A stretch of 64,000 bases of DNA from Loktanella sp. (GTDB taxonomy: Bacteria; Pseudomonadota; Alphaproteobacteria; Rhodobacterales; Rhodobacteraceae), in the NCBI GenBank assembly GCA_017390475.1, contig JAFPBO010000018.1, positions 62,001 through 126,000 on the forward strand, in the 5' to 3' direction. The position numbers and the translations under genes were made by a program. Positions 1,447 to 39,956 of the stretch are shown here, piece by piece (the first letter of the stretch is position 1; every line of letters starts with the position of its first letter). The notes under the pieces were generated by a model, which saw nothing but the letters and a program-made list of their open reading frames with translations, was not told the origin of the DNA and ran no database searches.

Positions 1447-2308
1447 CCGGGGTGCTTTGCGTGTAAAACCCGTCGCGGATGAACCCGGCCAGATCGGCGA
1501 TCACCGGACTGCTGTCCAGATCGGCGTGATACAGATTGACGTTGAAATGGCGCAGATCGGGCAAGGCACCGCCATGGTTGATCCGTTCGAAATGGCGCGG
1601 CTCTGCCCCGGCCAACATCGTATGGACCGCAAGATCGGCGCTGACAGAGGCCTCTATCGTGCGGCTGGAATGGCTTTCGACGGCCATTTCCCAAGGGATA
1701 CCAGCCTCATCCAGGCGACGCTGCACGAATTTGCGGAAAATGCAGCGATGCTCGAACGCCAGCCGCAGGGGGCGCTGTTTCCACACTTGCCCGCCGGGCG
1801 CGCCCAGCCAGACCAGCGGGATAGCAGTCAGGGTTTCACCGCCCTGCCCGACGCTGTCTTCGGTGGTTAGAATCATATCCAATGCGCCGCGTCGGTATTC
1901 ATCCAGCAACTGACTGGTGAACGATGACGCCAATTGTACCCGCATCCGCGGATAGGCAGCGGCAAAGCGGCGCAACACCTGCGGTATCACCGGATAGACG
2001 ATGTCATGCGGCACGCCCAGAGTAACCTCGCCCTCATAGGCGACGGATGTCAGCTTACCATAGATTTCATCGTTCAGGATCAGCATCCGCCGCGCATAGG
2101 ACAGCAGATGTTCACCCTGCGATGTCAGCGCGATGGTACGTGATGAGCGGTCCAGCAATTGCGCATCCAACGACTCCTCCAGTCGCTTGAGCTGCATTGA
2201 AACGGCGGATTGGGTCAGGTGCAAAAGCCCCGCCGCCTTGGTCACGCCGCCGGTATCGGCGACCGCCACAAAAGACCGTAAGGCGGTCAGATCCAGATTA
2301 CGTGTCAT
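1433..2308 (-). CDS. LysR-family transcriptional regulator
   Basis: A 291-residue protein of standard LysR length. The N-terminal winged HTH (about residues 5-65) has the family pattern LRSFVAVADTGGVTKAAGLL followed by LTQSAVSMQLKRLEE. The rest is a periplasmic-binding-protein-like effector domain. It is convergent with the oxidoreductase gene and divergent from the DUF1127 gene at 2418, so an operator would be expected in 2309-2417, an AT-rich stretch. LysR proteins often act on the divergent neighbour, but a regulator acting elsewhere is equally possible. The effector ligand is unknown. Confidence 0.88.
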   Translation of the reverse strand: MTRNLDLTALRSFVAVADTGGVTKAAGLLHLTQSAVSMQLKRLEESLDAQLLDRSSRTIALTSQGEHLLSYARRMLILNDEIYGKLTSVAYEGEVTLGVPHDIVYPVIPQVLRRFAAAYPRMRVQLASSFTSQLLDEYRRGALDMILTTEDSVGQGGETLTAIPLVWLGAPGGQVWKQRPLRLAFEHRCIFRKFVQRRLDEAGIPWEMAVESHSSRTIEASVSADLAVHTMLAGAEPRHFERINHGGALPDLRHFNVNLYHADLDSSPVIADLAGFIRDGFYTQSTPVTAQ

Positions 2309-2417
2309 ATCAATAATCCTGATATTTTATCCATCAAACATTCATTTTTATAATGCAATGTCCTCGAGTAAATATCAAGCACAGACATATGAATGACATC
2401 ACCCATCACGAAAGACG

Positions 2418-2633
2418 ATGCAAATGACCAGTGCAACACAATCCTGCGCCCTGCCGGCGTCCCGTCCCTCAATCTTTTTGCGCATCCTGCAGGCGATGAG
2501 CCTGTCGCGGGAACGGCGCGACCTGCGCGAGCTTGAACCACACCTTCTCGACGATATCGGAATCACGCGGCAGGATGCGCTGGACGAGGCCGATAAACCC
2601 GTCTGGGACGTGCCGCGCCATTGGCGGATGTAA
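2418..2633 (+). CDS. DUF1127 (YjiS-like) small protein
   Basis: This 71-residue basic protein carries the DUF1127 signature in its C-terminal half: RRDLRELEPHLLDDIGITR, followed by a short tail ending in RHWRM. Such small arginine-rich proteins are widespread in alphaproteobacteria; some family members act in phosphate or carbon metabolism through RNA or protein contacts, but no role can be assigned here. It is divergent from the LysR gene with 109 bp between the starts. The strong family motif makes it a real gene despite its size. Confidence 0.8.
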   Translation: MQMTSATQSCALPASRPSIFLRILQAMSLSRERRDLRELEPHLLDDIGITRQDALDEADKPVWDVPRHWRM

Positions 2634-2783
2634 CAGGCTGGTAAACAGCCTGCGACATTCGCGCGCAAAAGCTGCGTAAATATCGCGCATCGGCCCGGAA
2701 AGCCTTGAATATCAGGGGTAGTCTGCCAATATGTCCGACAAGGATGCCGTTACTGGCGCCACTGTCTAATTTTGGAGGATAAA

Positions 2784-3521
2784 ATGGCTCAATACGAGAC
2801 AATTCGCACGGCCGGTGGGGTCCGCACGGCCAATATCGACGCGGGTCTTCGCGCCCACATGAACAAAGTCTACGGCACAATGTCCGTGGGTATGCTGATC
2901 ACATTCGCCGTTGCTTGGGCTGTCGGCACAGCACCCGGCCTGCTGGCAGTTTTCCGTGACCCGATCACATTGCAGCCCAACATTTTGGGGTGGATCGTGA
3001 TGTTCGCACCCTTGGCGATGATTTTCGGCTTTGGCGCGATGATCAACCGTTTCTCGGCAGCTGCGGCACAGACCTTCTTTTACGCTTTCGCCGCCGTCAT
3101 GGGCTTGTCGATCTCGTGGATCTTCGTTGCTTTCACCGGCATGTCGATTGCGCAGATTTTTCTGATCACCTCGATCGCCTTCGCGGGTCTTAGCCTCTAT
3201 GGCTATACCACGAAAAAGGATCTGTCTGCCTGGGGCACGTTCCTGATGATGGGTCTGATCGGTATCATCGTGGCGATGATCGTGAACATCTTCCTGCAAT
3301 CGCCAGCGATCATGTTTGCGATTTCGATTCTGGGTGTTCTGATCTTCGCAGGTCTGACCGCTTATGACACCCAACGGATCAAATCCGACTATATCGCACA
3401 TGCCGCACAGGGCGACAGCGAATGGCTGGGTAAATCAGCGATCATGGGCGCGTTGAGCCTGTACCTGAACTTTATCAACATGTTCATGTTCCTGCTGCAA
3501 CTTTTCGGCAACCGCGACTAA
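2784..3521 (+). CDS. Bax inhibitor-1/YccA family membrane protein
   Basis: A 245-residue protein with seven hydrophobic segments, as in the BI-1/YccA (TMBIM) family. The first segment is near residues 28-50 and the last (LYLNFINMFMFLLQLFG) is at the C-terminus. The stretch AYDTQRIKSDY just before the last segments is a typical family motif containing conserved acidic residues. These inner-membrane proteins are pH-sensitive ion leak channels or interact with the FtsH protease. The ATG at 2784 is preferred over the in-frame TTG at 2772 because GGAGG sits 5 nt upstream. A strong terminator follows, so the gene is probably monocistronic. Confidence 0.92.
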   Translation: MAQYETIRTAGGVRTANIDAGLRAHMNKVYGTMSVGMLITFAVAWAVGTAPGLLAVFRDPITLQPNILGWIVMFAPLAMIFGFGAMINRFSAAAAQTFFYAFAAVMGLSISWIFVAFTGMSIAQIFLITSIAFAGLSLYGYTTKKDLSAWGTFLMMGLIGIIVAMIVNIFLQSPAIMFAISILGVLIFAGLTAYDTQRIKSDYIAHAAQGDSEWLGKSAIMGALSLYLNFINMFMFLLQLFGNRD

Positions 3522-3544
3522 TCTCTGCCGAGCGGATTTTGAAA

Positions 3545-3574
3545 GGGGCTGGTGGCAACACCGGCCCCTTTTTT
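3545..3574 (+). terminator. Rho-independent terminator of the BI-1 family gene
   Basis: GGGGCTGGTG (3545-3554) pairs with CACCGGCCCC (3559-3568) across a GCAA tetraloop, with a single imperfect position, and a run of six T follows (3569-3574). It begins 23 bp after the stop codon of the BI-1/YccA gene. Confidence 0.9.
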
Positions 3575-3614
3575 GTTACCCTGCCCTGCCATTCCAAACA
3601 GCAAGAGGCACGCT

Positions 3615-4078
3615 ATGCCGGTGATCAAAGCAAAAAACGCGAAACTGGATCAGCCAGAGACGCCACATCCGGTGCTTGGCCCTTACACTGTGCGGCTATT
3701 CAGCGACACTGGCGGGCTGACCCAGTTTGGTGCTTTCACCGAAACCCTGCCGCCGGGGTCAATGTCATCCACTTGCCACTGGCACCAGAAGGAGGATGAG
3801 ATGATCTATATGCTGTCAGGCGAGGTGGTCGTACATGAAGGCCCGGACCAGATCCTGCTGCAGCCCGGTGATGCGCCTGTTTCAAAGCGGGTGTGCCGCT
3901 GGGGCATTATCTGGAAAACCGGTCAACAGCGGATGCCACCTATCTGGTGATTGGCACAAGGGCTGCGCGTGATCAGGTGACCTACCCCAATCATGACAGG
4001 GTGCTGCATCTGGACCGCACAGCCGGTACACGCCACTACACCACGCTGGCGGGCGATCCGGCAACAACACCTTACTAA
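3615..4078 (+). pseudogene. Cupin-domain protein gene interrupted by a frameshift
   Basis: The frame from ATG 3615 encodes a cupin: the metal-binding HWHQKEDEMIYMLSG motif, then VVVHEGPDQILLQPGDA. The expected continuation (CFKAGVPLGHYLENRS, then VIGTRAARDQVTYPNHD) is in another frame from base 3878 to the stop at 4078. Missing one base near 3876 would explain it. Unrepaired, the first frame runs on to a stop at 3950 with unrelated residues. The intact product would be a single-domain cupin of about 154 residues, function unknown. Either the gene is broken or the sequence has a one-base error; both halves look otherwise intact, which favours an error or a very recent mutation. Confidence 0.75.
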
Positions 4079-4081
4079 CGC

Positions 4082-4110
4082 AAAAGACCGCGCTGCTGCG
4101 CGGCCTTTTC
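4082..4110 (-). terminator. Terminator of rpmG
   Basis: On the minus strand GGCCGCGC pairs with GCGCGGTC across AGCA, with one G-T pair, followed by TTTT. It starts 26 bp past the rpmG stop. On the plus strand the same hairpin has one A-C mismatch, so it may also weakly end the cupin transcript. Confidence 0.7.
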
Positions 4111-4135
4111 ACTGTCCCCAAGGGGTCAAGATCAC

Positions 4136-4303
4136 TTACTTGATCTTGCCTTCCTTGTATTCCACGTGCTTGCGCACAACGGGATCGTATTTTTTGATCG
4201 CCATTTTTTCGGTCATTGTGCGTGCGTTTTTTTTGGTCACATAGAAATGCCCGGTCCCCGCGGTGGAGTTCAGGCGGATTTTGATCGTGGTTGGCTTCGC
4301 CAT
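4136..4303 (-). CDS. rpmG: 50S ribosomal protein L33
   Basis: The reverse strand encodes 55 residues starting [20 protein letters not shown] and containing [13 protein letters not shown] and [18 protein letters not shown], the full L33 signature and usual length. It lacks the CxxC pairs of the zinc-binding form, so it is the C-minus type. It belongs to the large ribosomal subunit near the E site. A GGAGAAG Shine-Dalgarno lies just upstream of the ATG at 4303, and a hairpin terminator follows the stop. Confidence 0.97.
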
Positions 4304-4434
4304 GTTTCACTTCTCCGGCTTCGCGGGGCTAGGCCCACGGTGATATCATTGGAACCGCCTTTTACCGCGCACGCGTCCCGAGTCAACCGCAAAGCAACGT
4401 TTGACCTACAGGATCGTGCAACGGGATGATCCGG

Positions 4435-5676
4435 CTATACATCCTGCCAGGAACGATCGCCTTTTGCATCTTGCACGCGGGTCGGCAGGCCGATCCGGTC
4501 CAGCAGCGCGAAAAGCGGTTTGGGGTCCAGTTCCTCGACATTCATCATGACGCCTTTGTCATAGGTGCCATCGGCGATCAGCATCGCAACCCCGACAGGC
4601 GGCACGCCGGCGGTATAGGAAATGCCTTGGCTGCCGACCTCGTTATACGCGTCTTTGTGATCGGCGACGTTGTAGACAAACACCTCGACCTCTTCGCCGT
4701 CTTTGGTGCCTTTGACCAGATCACCGATACAGGTCTTGCCGGTGTAATCTGGCGCAAGGCTGGACGGGTCCGGCAAGACAGCCTTGACCAGCTTGAGCGG
4801 CACAACCTCCAGCCCTTCGGCGGTGGTGACGGGTTGTTCAGACAACAGGCCAAGGTTTTGCAGCACGGTAAAGACATTGATGTAATGATCGCCAAAGCCC
4901 ATCCAGAACCGGATATCGGCATCTGGGTAATTGGCGGCTAGCGAATGCACCTCATCATGGCCGGACAGATAGGCCTTTTGTTTGCCCACGACAGGCAGGT
5001 CCCATTCGCGGCCCACCTCGAACATCTTGTTTTCCTGCCATGCGCCTTGCTGCCAGCTATAGACGGTGCCGGTGAATTCGCGGAAATTGATCTCCGGGTC
5101 GAAATTGGTCGAGAAATAGCGACCATGGCTGCCAGCGTTGATATCGACGATATCAATCGACGTGACCTGATCCATGAATTCATCGACGGCGAAACGCGCG
5201 AAAGCGTTGACCATGCCGGGATCAAACCCGGCCCCAAGGATCGCGGTGATCCCGGCCTTGGCGCAATCGTCGCGGCGTTTCCATTCGTAATTGCCATACC
5301 ACGGCGGCGTTTCGCAGATCTTGGTCGGGTCTTCGTGGATGGCGGTGTCGATATAGGCGGCACCTGTCTGGATACAGGCCTCAAGCACCGACATATTCAC
5401 GAAAGGCGACCCGACATTCAGCACGATCTGCGCGCCGGTTTCGCGGATCAGCGCCGCCACCGCCGCGCTGTCCATCGCATCGACCGCATGGGCGGCGAAA
5501 ACGCCATCCTGCTTCATCGCGGATTTGTCATGAACAGAGGCGATAATCGCGTCGCATTTCGCAATGGTCCGGCTGGCAATATGCAGATCACCCAGCACAT
5601 CATTATTCTGCGCCGCTTTATGTGCGACGACCTGTGCGACGCCGCCAGCGCCGATGATAAGAAGATTGCGTTTCAT
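4435..5676 (-). CDS. Carboxynorspermidine synthase (saccharopine dehydrogenase family)
   Basis: This 413-residue enzyme starts MKRNLLIIGAGGVAQVVAHK, a Rossmann nucleotide-binding motif at residues 6-16, and continues with the saccharopine-dehydrogenase fold (GAGFDPGMVNAFARFA in the middle). It is placed as carboxynorspermidine dehydrogenase because nspC lies directly upstream. The known reaction joins aspartate semialdehyde to a diamine using NADPH, and NspC then decarboxylates the product to norspermidine or spermidine. An alternative GTG at 5706 would overlap the nspC stop as GTGA and could be the translated start; the ATG at 5676 is preferred because homologues begin with the Rossmann strand. 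Confidence 0.88.
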   Translation of the reverse strand: MKRNLLIIGAGGVAQVVAHKAAQNNDVLGDLHIASRTIAKCDAIIASVHDKSAMKQDGVFAAHAVDAMDSAAVAALIRETGAQIVLNVGSPFVNMSVLEACIQTGAAYIDTAIHEDPTKICETPPWYGNYEWKRRDDCAKAGITAILGAGFDPGMVNAFARFAVDEFMDQVTSIDIVDINAGSHGRYFSTNFDPEINFREFTGTVYSWQQGAWQENKMFEVGREWDLPVVGKQKAYLSGHDEVHSLAANYPDADIRFWMGFGDHYINVFTVLQNLGLLSEQPVTTAEGLEVVPLKLVKAVLPDPSSLAPDYTGKTCIGDLVKGTKDGEEVEVFVYNVADHKDAYNEVGSQGISYTAGVPPVGVAMLIADGTYDKGVMMNVEELDPKPLFALLDRIGLPTRVQDAKGDRSWQDV

Positions 5677-28706: not shown

Positions 28707-29537
28707 ATGGCATCAGACATGAGCAATGAACCCTCCCCCGGCGACCGGATCGCCAAAGTCCTGTCGCGCGCCGGTATCGCGAGCCGCCGTGATGCCGAAC
28801 GCATGATTAGCGAAGGCCGCGTCAGCGTGAACGGCAAAGTCATTACCAGCCCCGCACTGAATGTGACCGAATCTGACCGCATCGTCGTCGACGGCAAGGC
28901 CGTGCGCGCACCCGAACCGCCACGGATCTGGCTGTATCACAAACCTGCCGGGTTGGTGACGACTGAGCGGGATGAGAAAGATCGTCCGACGGTTTTTGCC
29001 TCCTTGCCCGAAGATATGCCACGGGTGATGTCGGTCGGGCGTCTCGACCTCAATTCCGAAGGTCTGCTGCTCTTGACCAATGACGGCGGCGTCAAGCGGC
29101 GGCTGGAATTGCCCAGCACCGGCTGGCTGCGCCGTTACCGCGTGCGGATCAACGGATCGGTCAGCGAGGCGCGGCTGGACCAGCTGCGCGCCGGGATCAC
29201 CGTGGACGGTCTGCGCTATCAGCCGATGATCGTGACTTTTGACCGACAGCAAGGCGCCAATGCCTGGCTGACCGTCAGCCTGCGCGAAGGCAAGAACCGC
29301 GAAATCCGCCGCGCGATGGAGGCAATCGGCGTCACCGTGAACCGGCTGATCCGGGTCAGCTATGGCCCGTTCCAGCTGGGCAATCTGGAACAAGGTGCCG
29401 TGGAAGAGGTCAAGGGCCGCGTCGTGCGCGATCAATTGGGCCTGATGGACAAGGACCTGGGCAAGGATGACAGCAAACCCACGCGGGTCCGCCGCCCTGT
29501 CAACCGCCCGGTTGCAGGTAAAAAGCGACCCGGCTGA
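28707..29537 (+). CDS. rluB: 23S rRNA pseudouridine synthase, RluB family
   Basis: A 276-residue protein with an N-terminal S4 RNA-binding domain (DRIAKVLSRAGIASRRDAER) and the RsuA/RluB catalytic motif GRLDLNSEGLLLLTND with the catalytic Asp. YHKPAGLVTT precedes it and EGKNREIRRAM follows, as in the family. It probably makes pseudouridine 2605 of 23S rRNA (E. coli numbering). The start is uncertain: ATGs lie at 28662, 28707 and 28719; 28707 has AAAGG 4 nt upstream. The basic C-terminal tail is species-specific. Confidence 0.9.
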   Translation: MASDMSNEPSPGDRIAKVLSRAGIASRRDAERMISEGRVSVNGKVITSPALNVTESDRIVVDGKAVRAPEPPRIWLYHKPAGLVTTERDEKDRPTVFASLPEDMPRVMSVGRLDLNSEGLLLLTNDGGVKRRLELPSTGWLRRYRVRINGSVSEARLDQLRAGITVDGLRYQPMIVTFDRQQGANAWLTVSLREGKNREIRRAMEAIGVTVNRLIRVSYGPFQLGNLEQGAVEEVKGRVVRDQLGLMDKDLGKDDSKPTRVRRPVNRPVAGKKRPG

Positions 29538-29627: not shown

Positions 29628-29831
29628 ATGTTGCGTATCATCCTGCTGGTGATGTTTGTTTCCGTCATCGCGGTCGGATTTCTGGCTGTTATGGGAACAT
29701 TGCGCGCCATCACCGGCCCTGCTGCGGAAAAGGATGAAGAACCAATGCCTGCCCCCTTTCGACGGATTTCCTACACTGTGTTGATCGTCTTGATGTTTGG
29801 CGTGACCACTGGCTGGCTTGGGGCATCCTGA
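29628..29831 (+). CDS. Small two-segment membrane protein at the head of the XpaC-TelA operon
   Basis: A 67-residue protein with two hydrophobic helices: residues 2-28 (ILLVMFVSVIAVGFLAVMG region) and 48-64 (SYTVLIVLMFGVTTGW), joined by a charged loop AAEKDEEPMPAP. No family is recognised. Its stop overlaps the ATG of the XpaC-like gene by TGATG, so it is co-translated with it. A 90-bp gap upstream should hold the operon promoter, and it contains GTTTT-N5-AAAAC at 29552-29566. Confidence 0.75.
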   Translation: MLRIILLVMFVSVIAVGFLAVMGTLRAITGPAAEKDEEPMPAPFRRISYTVLIVLMFGVTTGWLGAS

Positions 29832-30730
29832 TGGCCCGCAAATTCGGCGGTAAATTCAGCCCCGGCGGGGCAGCAACCGATCCGCGTGAGGCAGCGGTTG
29901 ATCCCGCGCGGCTCAAGAAGGCAGGATCGCGCGGTCGTCTTCTTTACATCCCAGCGGTTGTGCTGGTTTTCACCTCGCTCAATGCTGGACCGCAGGTGCT
30001 GGTCACCGCGCTGGCCGGCGCTGGCGTGCTGACTTTGGCCGCCTGGCTGCTGCAGGAAGGTCTGCGGGCAGAAGCGGCCTATGACGCGCGCAAGATTGCG
30101 CGCTGCCCGGCCCTGCCGCGCAAGATGCTGGCATCCGCCTTGACAGGAATCGGTGTGGCGATTGCCGCCTATACCGGTGACAGTGGGCTGGTCGGATCCG
30201 CGCTCTATGGTATTGCGGCGCTGGCCTTGCATGTCGCGGCCTTTGGCATTGACCCCTTGGCCGACAAAAAGGTCGCCGGCCTGGACCGTTTCCAACAGGA
30301 CCGTGTCGCCCGGGTCGTGGATGAGGCCGAGGCGTATCTGACCGATATGGCGGCGCAGATTGCCAGCCTGAAGGATCGTCGCCTGATTGAAAGGGTATCG
30401 GGATTTCAGCGGGTGGCGCGCCGGATGATCGCTACGGTAGAACAGGACCCCCGCGACCTGTCCGGCATCCGCCGCTACCTGGGGGTCTATCTGATGGGCG
30501 CACGCGATGCGACGGCCAAATTTGTCGATCTTTACCGGCGAGGCAGCAATGCCGAAGCGCGCGAGAAATACGAATCGTTGCTGGACGATCTCGAAGAAAA
30601 CTTTGCTGCTCGCACCGAAAAGATGCTGGTGGATGACCGCTCTGACATGGATATTGAAATCAACGTGCTGCGCGACCGTTTGCAGCGTGAAGGCGTGAGC
30701 CTGAAAATGAAAGGGAATGAAGATGTCTGA
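29831..30730 (+). CDS. XpaC-like (5-bromo-4-chloroindolyl phosphate hydrolysis family) protein
   Basis: A 299-residue protein. The N-terminus is basic, followed by four hydrophobic stretches (about residues 36-75 and 100-140). The soluble C-terminal half is helical and charged, with RFQQDRVARVVDEAEAYL and DRRLIERVSGFQRVARRMI. This layout and its position right before telA match the XpaC/YceG family. Despite the family name no phosphatase activity is established. In Bacillus and other bacteria XpaC and TelA are neighbours and occur with tellurite or envelope-stress genes. Overlaps telA by 8 nt. Confidence 0.8.
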   Translation: MARKFGGKFSPGGAATDPREAAVDPARLKKAGSRGRLLYIPAVVLVFTSLNAGPQVLVTALAGAGVLTLAAWLLQEGLRAEAAYDARKIARCPALPRKMLASALTGIGVAIAAYTGDSGLVGSALYGIAALALHVAAFGIDPLADKKVAGLDRFQQDRVARVVDEAEAYLTDMAAQIASLKDRRLIERVSGFQRVARRMIATVEQDPRDLSGIRRYLGVYLMGARDATAKFVDLYRRGSNAEAREKYESLLDDLEENFAARTEKMLVDDRSDMDIEINVLRDRLQREGVSLKMKGNEDV

Positions 30731-31916
30731 CTCTACCCGCCAGAAAGCAACCGAAGCCTTGGCCGACGTCGAGAAAGTGACAAACACCGTGCTTCCTGAC
30801 CCCTCGCGCGAGCTTGTGGCGCTGGAAAGTGCCGATGCGCCGACCAGCGCAGAAATCACCCGGCGGATGGCGGAAATCAACATCAGCGAAACCAATTCCA
30901 TCGTGTCGTTCGGGTCCTCCGCGCAGGCCGAATTGCAGGTGATCAGCCAAAGCATGCTGGCCGGTGTGCGCAACAAGGATGTAGGACCGGCGGGCGACAG
31001 CCTGCGCGGGATCGTGACAACGATCCGTGGATTTTCAATCTCGGAACTTGATGTGCGCCGTGACCGCAGCTGGTGGGAAAAACTGCTGGGCCGCGCGGCG
31101 CCGATGGCGAAATTCACCGCCCGGTTTGAAGAGGTGCAGGGCCAGATCGACCGTATCACCGACGATCTGCTGAAACACGAACATGTGCTGCTAAAGGATA
31201 TCGAAAGCCTCGATATGCTGTATGAAAAGACTCTGCAATTCTATGATGAACTGGGGCTTTATATCGCAGCAGGCGAGGCGAAGATCGCCGAACTGGACAA
31301 AACCACCATCCCCGCGAAAGAGGCCGAGGTACAGGCCGCGCCAGAGGATGCTGCCGTCATGAAAGCGCAGGAACTGCGCGATCTGCGTTCTGCCCGCGAT
31401 GATCTGGAACGCCGGGTGCACGACCTGAAGTTGACGCGTCAGGTGACGATGCAATCGCTGCCCTCGATCCGGCTGGTGCAGGAAAACGACAAATCCTTAG
31501 TGACCAAAATCAATTCGACCTTGGTCAACACCGTGCCTTTGTGGGAAACGCAACTGGCGCAGGCCGTCACCATTCAGCGGTCATCCGAAGCCGCCCATGC
31601 CGTGCGCGCCGCCAATGACCTGACCAACGAACTGCTGACCGCCAATGCGCAGAACCTGCGCGACGCGAACAAGGTGATCCGCACCGAAATGGAACGCGGC
31701 GTGTTTGACATCAATGCAGTGAAGGCGGCGAATGCCAATCTGATCGCCACGATCAACGAAAGCCTTGAGATCGCAGATGAAGGCAAGCGTAAACGCGCCG
31801 AAGCCGAGATCGAGATACAGAAGATGGAACAGGAACTGAAACAGACCCTGTCCGCCGCCAAGTCGCGCAAGACCGGCACCGGCGAGGTGATCGGCACCGC
31901 AGCAGGCGTGGAATAG
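30723..31916 (+). CDS. telA: TelA-family toxic anion resistance protein
   Basis: A 397-residue, mostly helical protein with the TelA pattern: an N-terminal part, then WWEKLLGRAAPMAKFTARFEEVQGQIDRI, a coiled-coil region, and LTRQVTMQSLPSIRLVQENDKSLVTKINSTL near residue 240, followed by a long C-terminal coiled coil. The second ATG (30723) has AAGGG 7 nt upstream and is preferred over 30717. Family members affect resistance to tellurite and cell-wall antibiotics; the mechanism is unknown. Genes on both sides are co-directional and close. Confidence 0.9.
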   Translation: MSDSTRQKATEALADVEKVTNTVLPDPSRELVALESADAPTSAEITRRMAEINISETNSIVSFGSSAQAELQVISQSMLAGVRNKDVGPAGDSLRGIVTTIRGFSISELDVRRDRSWWEKLLGRAAPMAKFTARFEEVQGQIDRITDDLLKHEHVLLKDIESLDMLYEKTLQFYDELGLYIAAGEAKIAELDKTTIPAKEAEVQAAPEDAAVMKAQELRDLRSARDDLERRVHDLKLTRQVTMQSLPSIRLVQENDKSLVTKINSTLVNTVPLWETQLAQAVTIQRSSEAAHAVRAANDLTNELLTANAQNLRDANKVIRTEMERGVFDINAVKAANANLIATINESLEIADEGKRKRAEAEIEIQKMEQELKQTLSAAKSRKTGTGEVIGTAAGVE

Positions 31917-31924
31917 GACAGCAT

Positions 31925-32887
31925 ATGGCGGGTCAGTCGTCGCTTTCTGTGGCACTTGCCATGGTGGCAGGGCTTCTGGCGGGATGCGACACTGCATCCC
32001 CGCCCGAAGATGTCGTGCCCCCGCCGGACATGCGTGCCGCGCCTGCTGTGCCTGATCTGCCCCTTGTGACCGAACCCAGTGCCGCCAGCCGCGAACTGGC
32101 TGCCCATTATGCCCGTCTGCAAAACCAGATGCTGACGCAGAACCTGCTACGCAGCGATGGTGGCGGGACGGACACACCGTTTACCGACACAATGCTGGCG
32201 CGCAATTTCGTCCAGATCGCCTTGGCGACCGAATATCAGGACAACAGCGATTTTCTGGTGCAGCGGCCCAGCCAGTCAGTACTGCACCGTTGGGACAAAC
32301 CGATCCGGATGAATGTCGTCTTTAGCGACACCGTTCCTTTGGCGCGACGCGATCAGGACCGCACCTCTGTCAGCGCTTTTGCCGCCCGCCTGTCGCGGCT
32401 GACCGGCGTGCCGATCAGGCAAAGCGATGATAACGCAAATTTCCACGTGTTGTTTCTGGATGAAGACGACAGGCGCGGTGCCGCTGCCCGGCTGCGCGCG
32501 CTCGCACCCGGTATTTCAGAGGCGTCACTGCGCGGCATCGTCAACCTGCCCCGCGAGCAGCTATGCCTTGTCGCCGCTGTCTTTGAACCGGGCCGGCCGG
32601 TTTACGCGCAGGCGGTGGTCGTGATCCGCGCCGAACACCCCAGCCTGATCCGCACGGCCTGTATCCACGAAGAGCTGGCCCAAGGCATGGGTCTGGCCAA
32701 TGACAGCGATGCGGCCCGGCCGTCCATCTTTAACGACAGCGAGGAATTCGCCTTGCTGACTCGGCATGATGAATTACTCTTGCGCATGCTGTACGATCCG
32801 CGCCTGCAACCCGGCATGGACCCCGCCATAGCCACCCCGATCGTGCGACAGATCGCGCGGGAATTATTGGCCCAAGGGTCCAGCTAA
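31925..32887 (+). CDS. DUF2927 lipoprotein
   Basis: A 320-residue protein with a lipoprotein signal (VAGLLAGCD). After a Pro-rich spacer, the main domain has RNFVQIALATEYQ, KWDKPIRMNVVFSDT-like sequence, and CIHEELAQGMGLANDSD near residue 250. The last resembles a metallopeptidase HExxxGxxx helix with Glu after His; the family is DUF2927 and is common in Rhodobacteraceae. It would face the periplasm, giving this operon an envelope component. Peptidase activity is only suggested by this motif. It starts 8 bp after telA. Confidence 0.82.
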   Translation: MAGQSSLSVALAMVAGLLAGCDTASPPEDVVPPPDMRAAPAVPDLPLVTEPSAASRELAAHYARLQNQMLTQNLLRSDGGGTDTPFTDTMLARNFVQIALATEYQDNSDFLVQRPSQSVLHRWDKPIRMNVVFSDTVPLARRDQDRTSVSAFAARLSRLTGVPIRQSDDNANFHVLFLDEDDRRGAAARLRALAPGISEASLRGIVNLPREQLCLVAAVFEPGRPVYAQAVVVIRAEHPSLIRTACIHEELAQGMGLANDSDAARPSIFNDSEEFALLTRHDELLLRMLYDPRLQPGMDPAIATPIVRQIARELLAQGSS

Positions 32888-32914
32888 GTTACCACCCACC
32901 GAAGGAGACTGCCC

Positions 32915-34015
32915 ATGTCCATCTTCAACTTCTTGTCCGGCCAGTTCATCGACGTCATCCACTGGACCGACAACACCCGCGACACGATGGTCTGGCGGTT
33001 CGAGCGTCATGGCCATGAGATCAAATATGGCGCAAAACTGACTGTCCGCGAAGGTCAGGCGGCAGTTTTCGTGCATGAAGGTCAATTGGCCGATGTGTTC
33101 ACACCCGGCCTATACATGTTGGAAACCAACAACATGCCGGTGATGACAACCTTGCAGCACTGGGATCATGGGTTCAAAAGCCCGTTCAAATCCGAAGTGT
33201 ATTTTGTCAACACAACCCGGTTCGGCAACCTCAAATGGGGGACTAAGAACCCGATCATGCTGCGTGATCCGGAATTCGGCCCGACCCGCCTGCGTGCATT
33301 CGGCACCTATACAGTGCGGGTGACCGATCCGGCGGTGTTCCTGCGGGAAATCGTTGGCACTGACGGCGATTTTACGATGGATGAGATCAGCTATCAGATC
33401 CGCAATATCATCGTGCAGGAATTCAGCCGCGCGCTGGCGGCATCGGGTATTCCTGCGCTTGATATGGCGGCAAATACTGGCGATCTGGGCAAATTGGTCG
33501 CCGAAGCTATTGATCCGACGCTGAAAAACTACGGTCTGTCGCTGCCGGAGCTTTATGTCGAAAACATCAGCCTGCCGCCTGCGGTGGAAAAGGCATTGGA
33601 TACACGCACCTCGCGCGGGATTGCGGGCAATCTGGATGAACATCTGAAATACAAGGCAGCCGAGGCTATGGCCGCCGAAGGATCAGCCGCGGGGCAAGCC
33701 ATGGGGATGGGCATGGGTGCCGGTCTGGGGATGCAGATGGGTCATGCGATGGGGCCTTGGGGGCCTGTCACGCAACCACAAGCTGCTGCCGCACCACCGC
33801 CGCCGCCTGTCGAACATGTCTGGCATATCGCGGAAAATGGTCAGGTCTCGGGTCCGTTTTCCAAGGCCTCGATGGGCCGCAAGGTGACTGACGGCACCTT
33901 GACCCGTGCCAGTATGGTGTGGACCCAGGGTCAGGATGGCTGGATGGCGGCAGAGGATGTGACCGAACTGGCGCATCTGTTCACCGTGATGCCGCCACCG
34001 CCCCCCGGCTCATGA
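32915..34015 (+). CDS. SPFH-domain protein with C-terminal GYF_2 domain (YdjI-like)
   Basis: A 366-residue protein. Residues about 15-250 match the YdjI/virion-core SPFH family (IDVIHWTDNTRDTMVWRF, GAKLTVREGQAAVFVHEG, FTPGLYMLETNNMP). A Gly/Met-rich linker (about 255-285) leads to a GYF_2-like domain starting at VWHIAENGQVSGPFSK with WTQGQDGWMAAED. SPFH proteins form membrane-associated scaffolds; in Bacillus YdjI works with YdjG and YdjH to recruit PspA to stressed membranes. It overlaps the next gene by ATGA. Confidence 0.88.
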   Translation: MSIFNFLSGQFIDVIHWTDNTRDTMVWRFERHGHEIKYGAKLTVREGQAAVFVHEGQLADVFTPGLYMLETNNMPVMTTLQHWDHGFKSPFKSEVYFVNTTRFGNLKWGTKNPIMLRDPEFGPTRLRAFGTYTVRVTDPAVFLREIVGTDGDFTMDEISYQIRNIIVQEFSRALAASGIPALDMAANTGDLGKLVAEAIDPTLKNYGLSLPELYVENISLPPAVEKALDTRTSRGIAGNLDEHLKYKAAEAMAAEGSAAGQAMGMGMGAGLGMQMGHAMGPWGPVTQPQAAAAPPPPPVEHVWHIAENGQVSGPFSKASMGRKVTDGTLTRASMVWTQGQDGWMAAEDVTELAHLFTVMPPPPPGS

Positions 34016-34434
34016 CCCAGCGCCGCCTGACAATCATCCTGCATTGGTCGCTGTTCATGCTGCTTTTGGCGATGATCAAAGGCGGCAGCGCGAATGAAAT
34101 CCTGCGCTGGGTCTATGTCGGCACCGGCACCCTGTGGCTTGCCATGACCGCCGCGAAAGGCATGCTGGGCAAGCCTGGGCCAAAGCTGCAAGGTGCGTTG
34201 AGACAGGCCTATCCGTGGATGCACCGGGGTATGTACGCCGTGCTTGCCGGGTCTGTCGGGGTGAATGCGGCAGCGTTGCTGGGATGGGTCAGCCTTGATC
34301 TTGCGTGGAACAGCCTTTTAGTGCTGCTTTTCGCGGCCACCTTTCACGGGCTGTTTCATTTCTGGCGGCATAATGTTCTGTACGACAATGCCCTGCGGCT
34401 GATGATGCCGCGTTTCATGCACAAGATATTATGA
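34012..34434 (+). CDS. Cytochrome b561-like small membrane protein
   Basis: A 140-residue protein with about four hydrophobic segments. Histidines sit at the membrane-helix positions used for haem in b561-type cytochromes: LHWSLFM (about residue 9), MHRGMYA (about 69) and FHGLFHFWRH (about 104). The match is to the general b561/DUF family and is weak; haem binding is a hypothesis. It lies between the SPFH and zinc-ribbon genes with 4-nt overlaps on both sides, so it belongs to the same translation-coupled operon. Confidence 0.65.
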   Translation: MTQRRLTIILHWSLFMLLLAMIKGGSANEILRWVYVGTGTLWLAMTAAKGMLGKPGPKLQGALRQAYPWMHRGMYAVLAGSVGVNAAALLGWVSLDLAWNSLLVLLFAATFHGLFHFWRHNVLYDNALRLMMPRFMHKIL

Positions 34435-35537
34435 CCCAGACAGACACAATAGACCCCGTTGATCACCGTTTCCCCTGCGATGCCTGCGGGGCGAATATGC
34501 GGTTTGACCCGCAACGCGGCGAATTGATCTGCCGCCATTGCGGCAATACGCAGGAAATGCCGGAAACTGTGGCGTCCAGCGGCAGTATCAAGGAACTCGA
34601 CTTCCGCCGTGCGCTCGACCAGCGGCTACCCGAGGCCGATATTGAAATCACCCGAACGGTGTCCTGCGACAGCTGCGGTGCGCAGTTTGAATTCGACCCC
34701 GACGAACATGCCACCCAATGCCCGTTCTGCGCCAGCCCCGTGGTCAGCGACACCGGCACCCATCGCCATATCAAACCCGGTGGCCTGTTGCCATTCGCGT
34801 TGGACGAACCCACAGCACATAAGGCGATGAACGACTGGCTGGGCAGCCTTTGGTTTGCACCGAACGGGTTGAAAGAATATTCGCGCAAGGGGCGGCGGAT
34901 GAACGGCATCTACGTCCCCTACTGGACCTTCGACGCCGATACGCAAAGCCGTTATTCCGGCCAGCGCGGCACCTATTACTATGTGACACAGACGGTGGTT
35001 CGCAACGGCAAGACATCGCAGGTACGGGTACGCAAAACCCGCTGGCGGTCGGTCACTGGTCAGGTCGCGCGGTTCTTTGACGATGTGCTGGTGCTGGCGT
35101 CCAAGTCCCTGCCCAAGAAACACACCGACGGGCTGGAACCTTGGGACCTGAGCGCGCTGGAACCGTACAAGCCTGATTACCTCGCCGGGTTCCGCGCCGA
35201 AGGCTATCAGGTCGCATTAGAGGATGGCTTTACCGAGGCCCGCGCCTTTATGGACAGAATGATCGCCCGCGATGTGAAATATGACATCGGCGGCGACACT
35301 CAACGAATCAGCGACATCCAGACACAGATCAGTGACGTGACCTTCAAACACGTACTGCTGCCGGTCTGGCTGGCCGCCTATAAATATCGCGGGCAAAGCT
35401 ATCAATTCGTGGTCAATGGCCGCACCGGCCGGGTGCAGGGCGAACGGCCCTATTCGGTATGGAAGATCGCGGCGGCCGTGATTGCCGGTCTGATCTTGGC
35501 AGGCGGCTTCGGTTTCGTTATCGCTAACAGCCAATAG
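34431..35537 (+). CDS. Double zinc-ribbon membrane protein (YdjG-like)
   Basis: A 368-residue protein with two TFIIB-like zinc ribbons: CDACG with CRHCG (about residues 17-38) and CDSCG with CPFC (about 78-100). A globular domain follows (RRMNGIYVPYWTFDADTQSRYSG), then a single C-terminal membrane helix near residues 343-362. It is sometimes mislabelled as a PriA-like helicase, but no helicase motif is present. In Bacillus, YdjG has the same layout and acts with YdjH and YdjI. It closes the coupled block. Confidence 0.85.
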   Translation: MTQTDTIDPVDHRFPCDACGANMRFDPQRGELICRHCGNTQEMPETVASSGSIKELDFRRALDQRLPEADIEITRTVSCDSCGAQFEFDPDEHATQCPFCASPVVSDTGTHRHIKPGGLLPFALDEPTAHKAMNDWLGSLWFAPNGLKEYSRKGRRMNGIYVPYWTFDADTQSRYSGQRGTYYYVTQTVVRNGKTSQVRVRKTRWRSVTGQVARFFDDVLVLASKSLPKKHTDGLEPWDLSALEPYKPDYLAGFRAEGYQVALEDGFTEARAFMDRMIARDVKYDIGGDTQRISDIQTQISDVTFKHVLLPVWLAAYKYRGQSYQFVVNGRTGRVQGERPYSVWKIAAAVIAGLILAGGFGFVIANSQ

Positions 35538-35550
35538 AGGGAGAGAGACG

Positions 35551-36456
35551 ATGATCCTATGCTGTGGCGAAGCCCTGATCGACATGCTGCCGCGCCAGAC
35601 TACAGCGGGAGAGGCCTGTTTCGCCCCGCATGCCGGTGGCGCCGTGTTCAATACTGCTGTCGCACTGGGGCGGTTGGGCGCGCCGGTGCAGTTCTTTTCC
35701 GGCCTGTCGTCGGATATTTTTGGCACGATCCTGCAGGATGGGCTGCGCGCCTCTGGTGTCGATGCCAGCCCTGCGGCGATCAGCGACAGGCCAACAACCC
35801 TGGCCTTTGTGACGCTGACCAATGGCCATGCTTCTTACGCATTTTATGATGAAAACACCGCTGGAAGGATGCTGTCCCCCGCTGATCTTCCAGAAACCAG
35901 CGCCGATGCGCTGTTTTTTGGCGGTATTTCCTTGGTCGTAGACCCCTGCGCCGCTGCCTATGAGGCGCTGATGCTGCGCGAGGCCCCGCGCGCGGTCACG
36001 ATGATCGACCCCAATATCCGCCCTGGTTTCATCAAGGATGAAACCAGCTATCGCGCCCGGCTGACCCGGATGCTGGCGGTAGCCGATATCATCAAGATTT
36101 CAGACGAAGATCTGGCATGGATCACCGGCAATGACGATGCCGTCGCCTTGCGCACACAGACGGGCGCTACGGTTGTCCTACTGACACGCGGTGCGGATGG
36201 AGTGACAATCGTTACCGAGGGCGCGACTTTTGACGTACCCGCTGTCAAGGCCGATGTTGTCGATACCGTTGGCGCAGGCGATACATTCAGCGCCGGATTT
36301 CTGGCCGACCTGCACGCACAGGGCCTGCTGACCAAAGCCGCCATAGCCGCTGCGGACAGCGATGCCCTGACCCGTGCTGCCGAATTTGGTGCAAAGGTTG
36401 CCGCGATCACCGTCAGCCGTGCAGGTGCCAACCCGCCTTGGGCATCTGAATTGTGA
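35551..36456 (+). CDS. PfkB-family carbohydrate kinase (fructokinase-like)
   Basis: A 301-residue ribokinase-fold kinase. [16 protein letters not shown]-like sequence near residue 30 and [13 protein letters not shown] near residue 228 are the two PfkB signatures, the second holding the catalytic Asp and anion hole. Length and sequence are closest to fructokinases, but the sugar is not decided by the sequence. It starts 13 bp after the zinc-ribbon gene with a GGGAGAGAG ribosome site and shares a GTGA overlap with dtd, so it may be read from the same transcript. Confidence 0.85.
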
Positions 36457-36890
36457 GGGCGCTGATACAGCGCGTCAGCCAAGCCAGCGTCAGCGTCGAT
36501 GGCGCAGTGATCGGCGAGATCGGGCCGGGACTGTTGGTCCTGATCTGCGCCATGGCAGAGGATGACGCCGCCAAATCCGCGACACTGGCGAGCAAGATCG
36601 CCAAGCTGCGCATCTTCAAGGATGAGGTGGGCAAAATGAACCTCTCTCTGCTGGACACTGGCGGAGCGGCCCTGGTTGTCAGTCAGTTCACGCTGGCGGC
36701 TGACACATCGCGCGGCAACCGCCCCGGTTTCTCTGCCGCTGCCAGTCCGGATCAGGGCCGCGCGCTGTATGAACAATTCGTCAGCGATGTCAGCGCTTTG
36801 GGCATCGCCACGGCGACAGGATCATTCGGCGCGGATATGCAAGTGTCCCTACTGAATGACGGCCCAGTCACGTTGATGCTGGATATCTAG
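36453..36890 (+). CDS. dtd: D-aminoacyl-tRNA deacylase
   Basis: A 145-residue protein of canonical DTD length. [17 protein letters not shown] opens the fold, VSQFTLAAD contains the catalytic-site SQFTL, and [13 protein letters not shown] is the C-terminal NxGPVT motif with the Gly-cis-Pro screw. It hydrolyses D-amino acids from tRNA. The start codon is GTG and overlaps the kinase stop by four bases. Confidence 0.95.
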
Positions 36891-36973: not shown

Positions 36974-38935
36974 TTATTCGCGCACAGGCCTTGCTACCGG
37001 GCGCAACACCGGCTTTTGCCCGATCAGCAGCGGCGTGAACCGCACTGGCCCTGCCTGCCCCGACAGGCGCGCCTGATAGACCGGTAGGCTTTCCGTCACG
37101 CGTTGCACATAATTGCGGGTCTCCACAAAGGGGATATGTTCGATCCAATCGACCACATCCATCTCTCGCAGGCGCGGATCACCACGCTCGGACATCCATG
37201 CGCGCGGGCGGCTGGGTCCGGCATTATAGCCAGCCGCGATCATCACAGGGCTGGGGCCGAACATGTCTTCCAGATGGGCCAGATAGGCCGCGCCAAGGGT
37301 GGCATTATACTGCCAGTCACTGGTCAGGCGGGCGCGCGAATAGGGCAGGTTCAAACGGGTGGCGACCTCTTCGGCGGTCGCGGGCATGACCTGCATCAGG
37401 CCCAAGGCACCGGCAGGGCTGCCGATCCCGATATTGAATTCGCTTTCACGCCGCGCAATGGACAGAGCGAGGGCGGGATCAACCGGCAGGTCCATCTGCG
37501 CCAGATCATGCAGCGGATAATAGATTTCCGGCAGAACCTCGCCGCGTGCTACGGCGGTCTTGCCCAGCAGCAGGGTGTAGTAATCTTCGTCAATCGACGA
37601 CAGATATGCCCCCAACCGAACCAGAGCCTCGGCCTCCAGCCGCTGTCCCAAAGCAGCAAAGAAAGTGACTGCCGCACCGCGTTCGCCGCCCTCCAGCAGG
37701 ATCAGCGCGGCGCGGGTCAGTTCGTCGTCAAACACTGCCGCCCCCTGCCAAGAAACATCAGACCCGACCAGAGTCGCGTCCAATGGGCGGTCGATCTTTT
37801 CCGAGGCCAGCAGGCCATAGAATGTTGTCTGATGCGCAGCAGCCACGCCATAGGCGGCGCGGGCCAGATCATCATTGCCCATCACCTCTTGTGCGCGCCC
37901 GGTCCAATACTGCATCCGCGCAACTGAAATTGGGCCGGAAACACGGGCGGCGGCAGTTTCAAAATGTTCCAGTGCCTGAACAGGATCGCCCTGATAGATC
38001 AGCGCGATATAACCCGCGAGCCATTCCAGATCGGCAAAAGCTTCGCCATCCAGCAAAAAATGGTTCGCGGCGAGCCGATAGGCGACATCAGCGCGACCTT
38101 CGCGCATGTGCCAACGTGCCAATATCTGACGATAGCCGGACCAGCGGAATGGTTCCTGCAACGCGTCGGCACTGGCGGCTTGCGCCAACAGCACCTCAGT
38201 CGCATCGGTCCAGTCGCCGCGCGCGGCAAGCCAACTGTAGCGGGCGTAAAGCAGTCCCGGCGTCTGGCGCAATGCCTCTGGCACTGCGTTGAACAAAGGC
38301 AGCATATTGGCGGTGCCACCGGCGTAACCGATCCGGGCCTCGACCAAAGCACGCTGGTCAGAGGGCAGCACCGGCAGCAGCCGGGCGGCATCACTCGTCC
38401 GCCCGCGCCAAAGTAGCGCATCGGCACGATCGGCGTGATAGGGGGCCAGCGGGTCTGCAAAACGCGCCATCAGCGCGGCATGACCCGCATCATCCAGCCC
38501 CAGCGTCAGCCAGGCATCGCGCAGGATTGTGGCCGCAGCCTCCTGTTGCCCAGTCGCCTGCAAAGCATCGACCAGACGCACAACACCCGCGCCGGTCAGC
38601 GGCTGACTATCGTCAAACCATGCGATCACCGCCTGCGGATCAGCATCAGCGGGGATCAGCGCCTCTGCCTGACGGCGCAACACAGGAAGGCCAGGCCAGT
38701 CCGGTCGGGCAGTAAAAAAGGCCTGATAGTCAGCAAATTCCGCATCCCCGGCACGCAGGCGCAACCAGGTCAACACGTCGCGCGCGACCGGATCAGCCCC
38801 CGCCGCGATCTGATAGGCGGCATCCCAACTGTCATCCTTGGCCGCAAGCGCCGCCACCGCAATCTGGTCAACGCGCTGCGCGAGCGCCGGGGTCGCGGCG
38901 ATAAGGCAAGCAAAAGACAGGACCGAAAGGCGCAT
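36974..38935 (-). CDS. slt: Soluble lytic murein transglycosylase
   Basis: From ATG 38935 the product is 653 residues, with signal peptide MRLSVLSFACLIAATPALAQ. A long alpha-superhelical domain of repeated helix pairs precedes the C-terminal SLT catalytic domain. There ARRESEFNIGIGSPAGALGLMQ holds the catalytic Glu and the family GLMQ motif, and AAGYNAGPSRPRAW follows. It cleaves peptidoglycan to 1,6-anhydromuropeptides in the periplasm. The frame is open 63 codons upstream, but the signal peptide sets the start. It is divergent from dapA. Confidence 0.92.
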   Translation of the reverse strand: MRLSVLSFACLIAATPALAQRVDQIAVAALAAKDDSWDAAYQIAAGADPVARDVLTWLRLRAGDAEFADYQAFFTARPDWPGLPVLRRQAEALIPADADPQAVIAWFDDSQPLTGAGVVRLVDALQATGQQEAAATILRDAWLTLGLDDAGHAALMARFADPLAPYHADRADALLWRGRTSDAARLLPVLPSDQRALVEARIGYAGGTANMLPLFNAVPEALRQTPGLLYARYSWLAARGDWTDATEVLLAQAASADALQEPFRWSGYRQILARWHMREGRADVAYRLAANHFLLDGEAFADLEWLAGYIALIYQGDPVQALEHFETAAARVSGPISVARMQYWTGRAQEVMGNDDLARAAYGVAAAHQTTFYGLLASEKIDRPLDATLVGSDVSWQGAAVFDDELTRAALILLEGGERGAAVTFFAALGQRLEAEALVRLGAYLSSIDEDYYTLLLGKTAVARGEVLPEIYYPLHDLAQMDLPVDPALALSIARRESEFNIGIGSPAGALGLMQVMPATAEEVATRLNLPYSRARLTSDWQYNATLGAAYLAHLEDMFGPSPVMIAAGYNAGPSRPRAWMSERGDPRLREMDVVDWIEHIPFVETRNYVQRVTESLPVYQARLSGQAGPVRFTPLLIGQKPVLRPVARPVRE

Positions 38936-39083
38936 CTGGATCACTACTCTGGTTGGTTTTTGTCCAAGGTAAACGAGTGTTGTGGCAAGGCAACTGACAA
39001 ACTTGGCAACAGGCAGAAAGGCGTCTAGGGTCCGCCAACTTTCGACCGGGCGACTCATCGTCCAGCACATAAGGAATCGTCGC

Positions 39084-39956
39084 ATGTTCAAGGGCTCCAT
39101 CCCCGCACTCGTCACACCGTTCACGGACGGTCAGGTGGATGTTGCGACACTCAAGAAACTCGTGAACTGGCATATTGAGCAAGGCAGCCACGGGCTGGTC
39201 CCCGTCGGCACGACCGGCGAAAGCCCGACCCTGACGCATGGCGAACATGATATGGTGGTCGAAATCGTCGTGCAGGAAGCGGCGGGGCGCATACCCGTCA
39301 TCGCCGGAGCCGGATCGAACAACACGATTGAAACCGTGCGTCTGGTGCAGGCTGCACAAAAGGCGGGCGCAGATGCCGCCCTTGTCGTGACGCCCTATTA
39401 CAACCGTCCGACCCAGGCCGGATTAATCGCGCATTTCACCGCTGCGGCTGATTGTGGCTTGCCGGTCATTATCTACAACATCCCCGGACGGTCCGCCGTC
39501 GATATGACCCCTGACACGATGGGCGAACTTTCGCGCCATCCGATGATCATCGGGGTCAAGGACGCCACCGGCGATCTGGCCCGCGTCCCCAAGCAGCGCC
39601 TGCGCTGTGGCAAAGACTTCGTGCAGATATCGGGTGAGGATGCCACGGCATTGGGTTTCAACGCGCATGGCGGGGTCGGGTGTATTTCGGTCACAGCCAA
39701 TGTCGCACCGAAACTTTGTGCGGAATTTCAAGAAACCACGCTTGCCGGGGATTATGCCAAGGCGCTGATCCAACTGGACCGGCTGATGCCGCTGCATGAG
39801 GCGATCTTTGCCGAACCCGGTGTCGCGGGGGCAAAATACGGGATGTCGCTGCTGGGTCTGTGCAATGAGGATGTACGCAGCCCGCTGGCCCCGTTGACCG
39901 ATGCGACCAAGGAACGGATGCGCGCGGCGATGGTCCATGCGGGCTTGCTGAACTAG
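39084..39956 (+). CDS. dapA: 4-hydroxy-tetrahydrodipicolinate synthase
   Basis: A 290-residue TIM-barrel enzyme. [11 protein letters not shown] near residue 41, [11 protein letters not shown] (catalytic Tyr about residue 132) and [10 protein letters not shown] (Schiff-base Lys about residue 160) are diagnostic. It condenses pyruvate with aspartate semialdehyde in the lysine/diaminopimelate pathway; lysA, elsewhere in the window, is the last step. AAGGA 8 nt before ATG 39084 supports the start. It is convergent with the AlkX/YcaQ-type gene. Confidence 0.96.

Follow-up and report, generated by a model that had tools for sequence, protein, structure and literature searches.

The XpaC-TelA and SPFH/zinc-ribbon (ZnR) gene pairs, which occur separately elsewhere, are joined in the Rhodobacteraceae around a gene for a DUF2927 lipoprotein, and in 13 genera of the family without TelA the two pairs are absent together. 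We put at about even the chance that their products form a PspA-independent envelope-stress (membrane-protection) machine that combines two otherwise separate modules. Marine bacteria of the Rhodobacteraceae type keep these probable membrane-protection genes together and seem to lose them together.

Organization of the gene run

The window, the whole stretch of 64,000 nucleotides of Loktanella sp. DNA that was analyzed, carries on its plus strand a run of nine genes (29628-36890) whose neighbors overlap slightly or lie no more than 27 bp apart. These genes and a conserved upstream neighbor, used as a marker of the site, are as follows.

28707..29537, plus strand: RluB/RsuA-type pseudouridine synthase (PF00849, TIGR00093), the conserved upstream neighbor and site marker
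29628..29831, plus strand: sm67, small protein with two hydrophobic stretches (hydropathy), partner of XpaC
29831..30730, plus strand: XpaC-like membrane protein (PF10112, E 6e-28) with two hydrophobic stretches
30717..31916, plus strand: TelA (PF05816, E 5e-105), predicted all-helical, no transmembrane stretch
31925..32887, plus strand: DUF2927 lipoprotein (Pfam DUF2927, 2e-60), matrixin-like fold predicted
32915..34015, plus strand: YdjI-like SPFH protein (Band_7_1, PF13421, 8e-101) with a C-terminal GYF_2 domain (PF14237, 1e-18)
34012..34434, plus strand: short cytochrome-b561-related membrane protein, an optional member (PF01292 matches of homologues; profile match to 5oc0, E 0.013)
34431..35537, plus strand: ZnR, YdjG-like, with a double zinc ribbon (invariant cysteines), a globular region and a C-terminal transmembrane segment (hydrophobic 342-368)
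35551..36456, plus strand: PfkB-family sugar kinase (PF00294, 4e-44), extending the coupled run
36453..36890, plus strand: Dtd, D-aminoacyl-tRNA deacylase (TIGR00256, 4e-54)

The rluB gene ends 90 bp upstream of sm67, which shares one base with xpaC, and telA overlaps xpaC in turn from a start at 30717 or, more likely as judged from relatives, at 30723. Gaps of 8 and 27 bp separate telA from the DUF2927 gene and the latter from spfh. The b561-like gene is linked to both spfh and znr by 4-bp ATGA overlaps, and a longer version of its reading frame, from 33919, would use a GTG start within spfh. Downstream of znr there is a 13-bp gap to pfkB, which overlaps dtd by 4 bp. A sequence-only reading of this DNA had described seven coupled genes ending with znr. 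All seven reading frames do lie on the plus strand with such gaps or overlaps, but the proposed end does not hold since PfkB and Dtd continue the run; Dtd is probably a housekeeping neighbor. A scan for promoters and terminators was not informative, with 3 promoter-like sites where 2.7 were expected and 12 terminator-like sites where 7.0 were expected. Neither sm67 nor the b561-like protein of the window had a significant match of its own in family-profile searches. Just beyond dtd, and convergent with it, lies a long minus-strand reading frame (36974-39124) whose product we take to resemble a soluble lytic transglycosylase.

Conservation of gene order in the Rhodobacteraceae

Of the 149 genera of the family, 133 have a TelA homologue. 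Synteny was assessed in 109 of the 132 TelA-positive genera besides that of the window, together with one further genus (L143), giving a set of 110; the 23 TelA-positive genera omitted were picked by hand (many short contigs or low rank). In 94 of the 110 genera XpaC-TelA-DUF2927-SPFH-ZnR keep this order, among them 7 of the 12 genera for which no rluB or dtd was found nearby. On the strand of TelA we found XpaC in 108 genera, DUF2927 in 104, SPFH in 103, ZnR in 99, rluB in 91, sm67 in 59 and a b561-type gene in 23, and within the fetched stretch Dtd in 67 and PfkB in 54, some of the absences in these counts being contig or stretch ends. Eighty named loci (Yoonia, Loktanella, Sulfitobacter, Roseovarius and others) gave a similar picture, with XpaC in 80, DUF2927 and SPFH in 79 each and ZnR in 72. 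Within the genus set the gap is at most 100 bp for XpaC-TelA in 104 of 108 cases, for TelA-DUF2927 in 94 of 104, for DUF2927-SPFH in 74 of 100 and for SPFH-ZnR in just 43 of 99, so other genes, b561 forms included, often precede ZnR.

This arrangement is far beyond chance. The coupling into a single system that had been proposed from the sequence depended, besides co-transcription, on the order being kept in relatives, as it is. Equal membership of all seven genes does not follow: the b561 gene is confined to 23 of the 110 genera, and DUF2927 occurs alone in 6 of 13 genera that have no TelA. Departures from the full set include three loci in which XpaC is absent and the rest present (L208, L228 and Paracoccus L308) and three in which DUF2927 is absent and the other four present (L215, L227 and L232).

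Two further variants were seen. The znr gene is inverted beside the SPFH gene in one genus (L163, 6529-8049), and a gene for a secreted-looking protein with a DUF4241 match below the family cut-off is present in L055 (10151-10783) and nine other loci, with 10 copies in the DUF2927/SPFH interval and 2 in the SPFH/ZnR interval.

Joint absence of the pairs that flank DUF2927

TelA is absent from 16 of the 149 genera. In three of these genomes (G022, G095 and G119) SPFH, or a piece of it, and ZnR begin right at the edge of a contig or close to it, which makes a gap in the assembly the probable reason for the lack of TelA. Full-length XpaC, SPFH and ZnR were found in none of the remaining 13, of which 12 have a genome completeness of 90% or more; the sole trace of SPFH was a GYF-domain match of 35-39 residues in G102. 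A full or nearly full DUF2927 is nevertheless present in six of the 13. It occupies the rluB site in five: rluB directly precedes it in three, TerC intervenes in one, and TerC plus an XpaC remnant intervene in one. In a seventh genome from a separate sample (G477) it lies 1.8 kb from rluB. In one TelA-less genus (L315) the 8.5-kb stretch around an operon-type DUF2927 contains no rluB. Two loci carry apparent deletion scars: L313 consists, in this order, of rluB, TerC, an XpaC remnant of about 105 residues, DUF2927 and Dtd, and L320 starts inside the end of DUF2927 and continues with the GYF-only SPFH remnant and then PfkB-Dtd.

Because the flanking genes are absent together where DUF2927 stays, we favor XpaC-TelA-SPFH-ZnR as one unit from which DUF2927 is separable; its occurrence without the others means that it cannot be counted as an obligatory component. 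Given the remnants, and given how common the full set is, we infer that the joint absences are losses and not primitive absence. The sequence-only reading had made both modules act together as an envelope-stress machine with the DUF2927 protein as an extra part. Joint action of XpaC-TelA with SPFH/ZnR is supported by their joint absence from 13 genera, the stress role itself is one that we infer, and DUF2927 does not stand as a fixed component.

Outside the family the TelA protein is rare, with members in 11 of 115 genomes of the class, two of them Rhodobacteraceae. Nine genomes with TelA belong to families of the class other than the Rhodobacteraceae, and eight of them were fetched (G241, below the cut-off, was left out). 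In two of the eight (L140 and L142) XpaC-TelA-SPFH-ZnR stand together, and the stretch contains no DUF2927. Across the phylum, 40 of 349 genomes yielded a ZnR. Among 13 strong ZnR matches outside the class, a number that excludes five weak ones (E 1e-9 to 3e-4, two of which, L252 and L253, were fetched), SPFH lies directly upstream in 12, and the 13th ends at a contig end; neither TelA nor XpaC was found in the fetched stretches around these 13. Since the modules occur separately elsewhere, the Rhodobacteraceae operon can be described as two known modules joined, with DUF2927 added.

The XpaC-TelA module

TelA and XpaC are widely annotated as toxic-anion resistance proteins, and little is known of their mechanism. 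In the window a PF10112 protein adjoins a PF05816 protein, B. subtilis XpaC matches the family profile at 1.8e-5, and a single copy of TelA was found in the window's genome. Homologues of sm67 lie within 100 bp of xpaC in 59 of 59 genera, and a second sm67-like and XpaC-like pair has both members in 15 of the 15 loci with either; sm67 and XpaC look like one sub-unit. This second, tandem pair lies upstream of the operon in L198 (628-1861) and 14 other loci. The TelA model consists of long helices at moderate confidence (pLDDT 71, pTM 0.54), and a structural search with it returned unspecific fold matches and no clear structural relative, so no likeness to PspA or ESCRT-III is established. Adjacent XpaC and TelA genes are also described in Listeria (lmo1966-lmo1967), where mutation of lmo1967 (TelA) is stated to raise susceptibility to nisin 4-fold and to tellurite 2-fold (PMC12791056, citing Collins 2010), and the greater sensitivity to nisin fits a protective role for TelA. 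Proteomics of a marine biofilm on plastic recovered a Paracoccus TelA, as reported in PMC11962581, so relatives of the protein are made under natural conditions.

The SPFH/ZnR module and PspA

The second module combines a Band_7_1 SPFH protein with a nearby zinc-ribbon membrane protein anchored by one C-terminal hydrophobic stretch. The eight cysteines of ZnR (Cys-16, Cys-19, Cys-34 and Cys-37; Cys-79, Cys-82, Cys-97 and Cys-100) are invariant in 41 of 41 sequences. The likeness to YdjI and YdjG suggested from the sequence is upheld by SPFH-ZnR pairs in Vibrio, Comamonas and Tsukamurella and by an SPFH-ZnR-TPM set in Enterococcus, whose ZnR aligns with that of the window at 26.7% over 91%, a likeness judged from these sets and not from a direct comparison with B. 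subtilis YdjG or YdjI. YdjH is a TPM protein, and a Pfam scan revealed no TPM-domain (YdjH-type) partner among the nine proteins of the run. PspA (PF04012) has no match in the window's genome; among 41 genomes sampled in the family, 34, the window's included, lack it and 7 have it. In Bacillus, YdjI is reported to depend on YdjG and YdjH and to localize PspA to the membrane (PMC8581546). The support of PspA that the sequence-only reading cited from Bacillus YdjGHI is thus not upheld here, as the genome has no PspA match.

The b561-like protein and the TerC neighbor

The b561 slot holds two forms of protein; 10 of 28 homologues match PF01292 (best 1.7e-10), and the short form does not. His-112 and His-120 are invariant in the 28, and the first-helix histidine is present in the window copy, but the short form, that copy included, is without the second-helix histidine of the longer homologues; these histidines are presumably the b561 haem ligands. 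Haem binding, which had been raised as a possibility, is therefore doubtful for the window copy.

A TerC-like gene separates rluB from the operon in 48 of 190 loci, the rluB-XpaC interval being open to inspection in 161 of these 190, and in 17 of the 110 genera. It lies upstream of sm67/xpaC on the same strand, typically about 55 bp away (for example L105, 5986-6801), and this neighbor in many relatives had not been seen by the sequence-only reading. PF03741 was confirmed for one TerC representative and also for TerC in the TelA-less loci L312 and L313. The operon of the window contains no TerC gene, the strong TerC match of its genome being on another contig.

DUF2927 as a predicted pseudo-matrixin

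DUF2927 is a "protein of unknown function" in Pfam, and the term was not found in the literature searched. The fold of the lipoprotein is predicted here for the first time to be that of a matrix metalloproteinase (MMP) catalytic domain (Foldseek probability 0.99, best E only 3.4e-3), with MMPs or karilysin making up 45 of 50 among the matches listed; comparing the profile of the whole domain with HExxH proteins gave nothing significant. In an ungapped alignment register the motif EExxQxxGxxND stands at the place of the zinc motif HExxHxxGxxH, and the zinc-histidine positions are taken by Glu, Gln and Asn. Glu-249 and Gln-253 are present in all 61 operon members and all 17 stand-alone ones, Asn-259 in 59 of the 61 (Asp in two) and in all 17, and Glu-250 is invariant; we take the equivalents of the first three in matrixins to be zinc ligands and that of Glu-250 to be the catalytic glutamate. 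The Met-turn position falls on Ser-267 in the ungapped alignment (residues 266-269 are PSIF), and Met-268 is found in 4 of the 17 stand-alone members. The sequence-only reading was right to place a DUF2927 lipoprotein here, as its family membership is confirmed, and it had overlooked the predicted matrixin-like fold without zinc histidines, which turns this family into a concrete biochemical question.

A second, longer DUF2927 protein is encoded elsewhere in the window's own genome (L319, C42:318500-325500, at 1758-5411 of that stretch), between genes for a MoxR-like AAA ATPase (weak bpMoxR match) and a CoxE-type VWA protein, and DUF2927 may also serve a MoxR-VWA system.

A model for the operon and its alternatives

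In the PspA-independent machine to which we give about even chances, XpaC and its two-helix partner would hold the soluble, helical TelA at the cytoplasmic face, and the SPFH-GYF protein would assemble on the membrane, held by the tail-anchored ZnR much as YdjI is by YdjG/H. The platform recruits PspA in Bacillus; with PspA absent, TelA would be its client here. DUF2927 would bind a periplasmic ligand, either a peptide or a hard metal ion, without cleaving it, and might report on the system or dock it.

A metal or toxic-anion system is somewhat unlikely in our estimate. TelA-XpaC, with TerC in many relatives, would then counter tellurite or balance hard metal ions, SPFH-ZnR would organize the membrane part, DUF2927 would bind metal in the periplasm, and envelope effects would be secondary. 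The name of TelA and the tellurite locus telA reported for R. sphaeroides (named in PMC6955997) point this way, as do the TerC genes directly upstream and the oxygen-donor residues at the zinc-histidine positions of DUF2927. However, the strong TerC match of the window's genome is on another contig, the effect on tellurite in Listeria is smaller than that on nisin (PMC12791056), and tellurite would be an improbable selective agent across 133 of 149 genera. The finding of the modules apart (Bacillus xpaC-yaaN, SPFH-ZnR alone, DUF2927 alone), together with the optional members and inserts, would suit a transcription unit of convenience, in which small modules, each independent of the others, lie between rluB and pfkB-dtd and do no joint work. 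We consider this decidedly unlikely, as the pairs flanking DUF2927 are absent together where DUF2927 remains, and a Paracoccus megaplasmid carries TelA-DUF2927-SPFH-ZnR-kinase, without detected XpaC, on a 15-kb stretch with neither rluB nor dtd. Lastly, the invariant Glu-250 and the predicted MMP fold could belong to an active metallopeptidase with an unusual metal site, making the operon a regulated-proteolysis pathway of the envelope; with Glu, Gln and Asn replacing the three zinc histidines, such an enzyme is very unlikely.

Returning to the PspA-independent machine, joint presence and absence point to TelA working with the SPFH/ZnR platform of PspA biology in the Rhodobacteraceae, and the two become testable together in tractable marine bacteria. 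A more specific form of the proposal, unlikely in our view, would have TelA replace PspA on the same platform, coupled through the membrane to DUF2927 as a pseudo-metalloproteinase sensing peptide or hard-metal ligands. If true, TelA would be a second kind of bacterial membrane-guarding helical protein.

Comparison with known systems

Two of the proteins depart from known relatives. DUF2927 has in common with the matrixins (MMPs and karilysin) the catalytic-domain fold, on a predicted model, but none of their zinc histidines, and the b561 slot recalls prokaryotic cytochrome b561 (PF01292, 5oc0) through its longer homologues, whereas the window copy is short and has no PF01292 match. The operon as a whole shares an SPFH protein and a zinc-ribbon membrane protein with the pspA-ydjGHI operon of B. 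subtilis, as described in PMC9239133 and PMC8581546, but has TelA-XpaC in place of PspA and a TPM protein. Stand-alone SPFH-ZnR pairs (Vibrio, Comamonas, Tsukamurella plasmids; 12 genomes outside the class) show the same adjacent genes in the same order, unlike here with no TelA or XpaC in the fetched stretches. The xpaC-yaaN pair of B. subtilis comprises the same two families, adjacent and in the same order, without SPFH-ZnR or DUF2927 in the stretch seen, whereas in the Rhodobacteraceae operon that pair is joined to both and to a small membrane partner.
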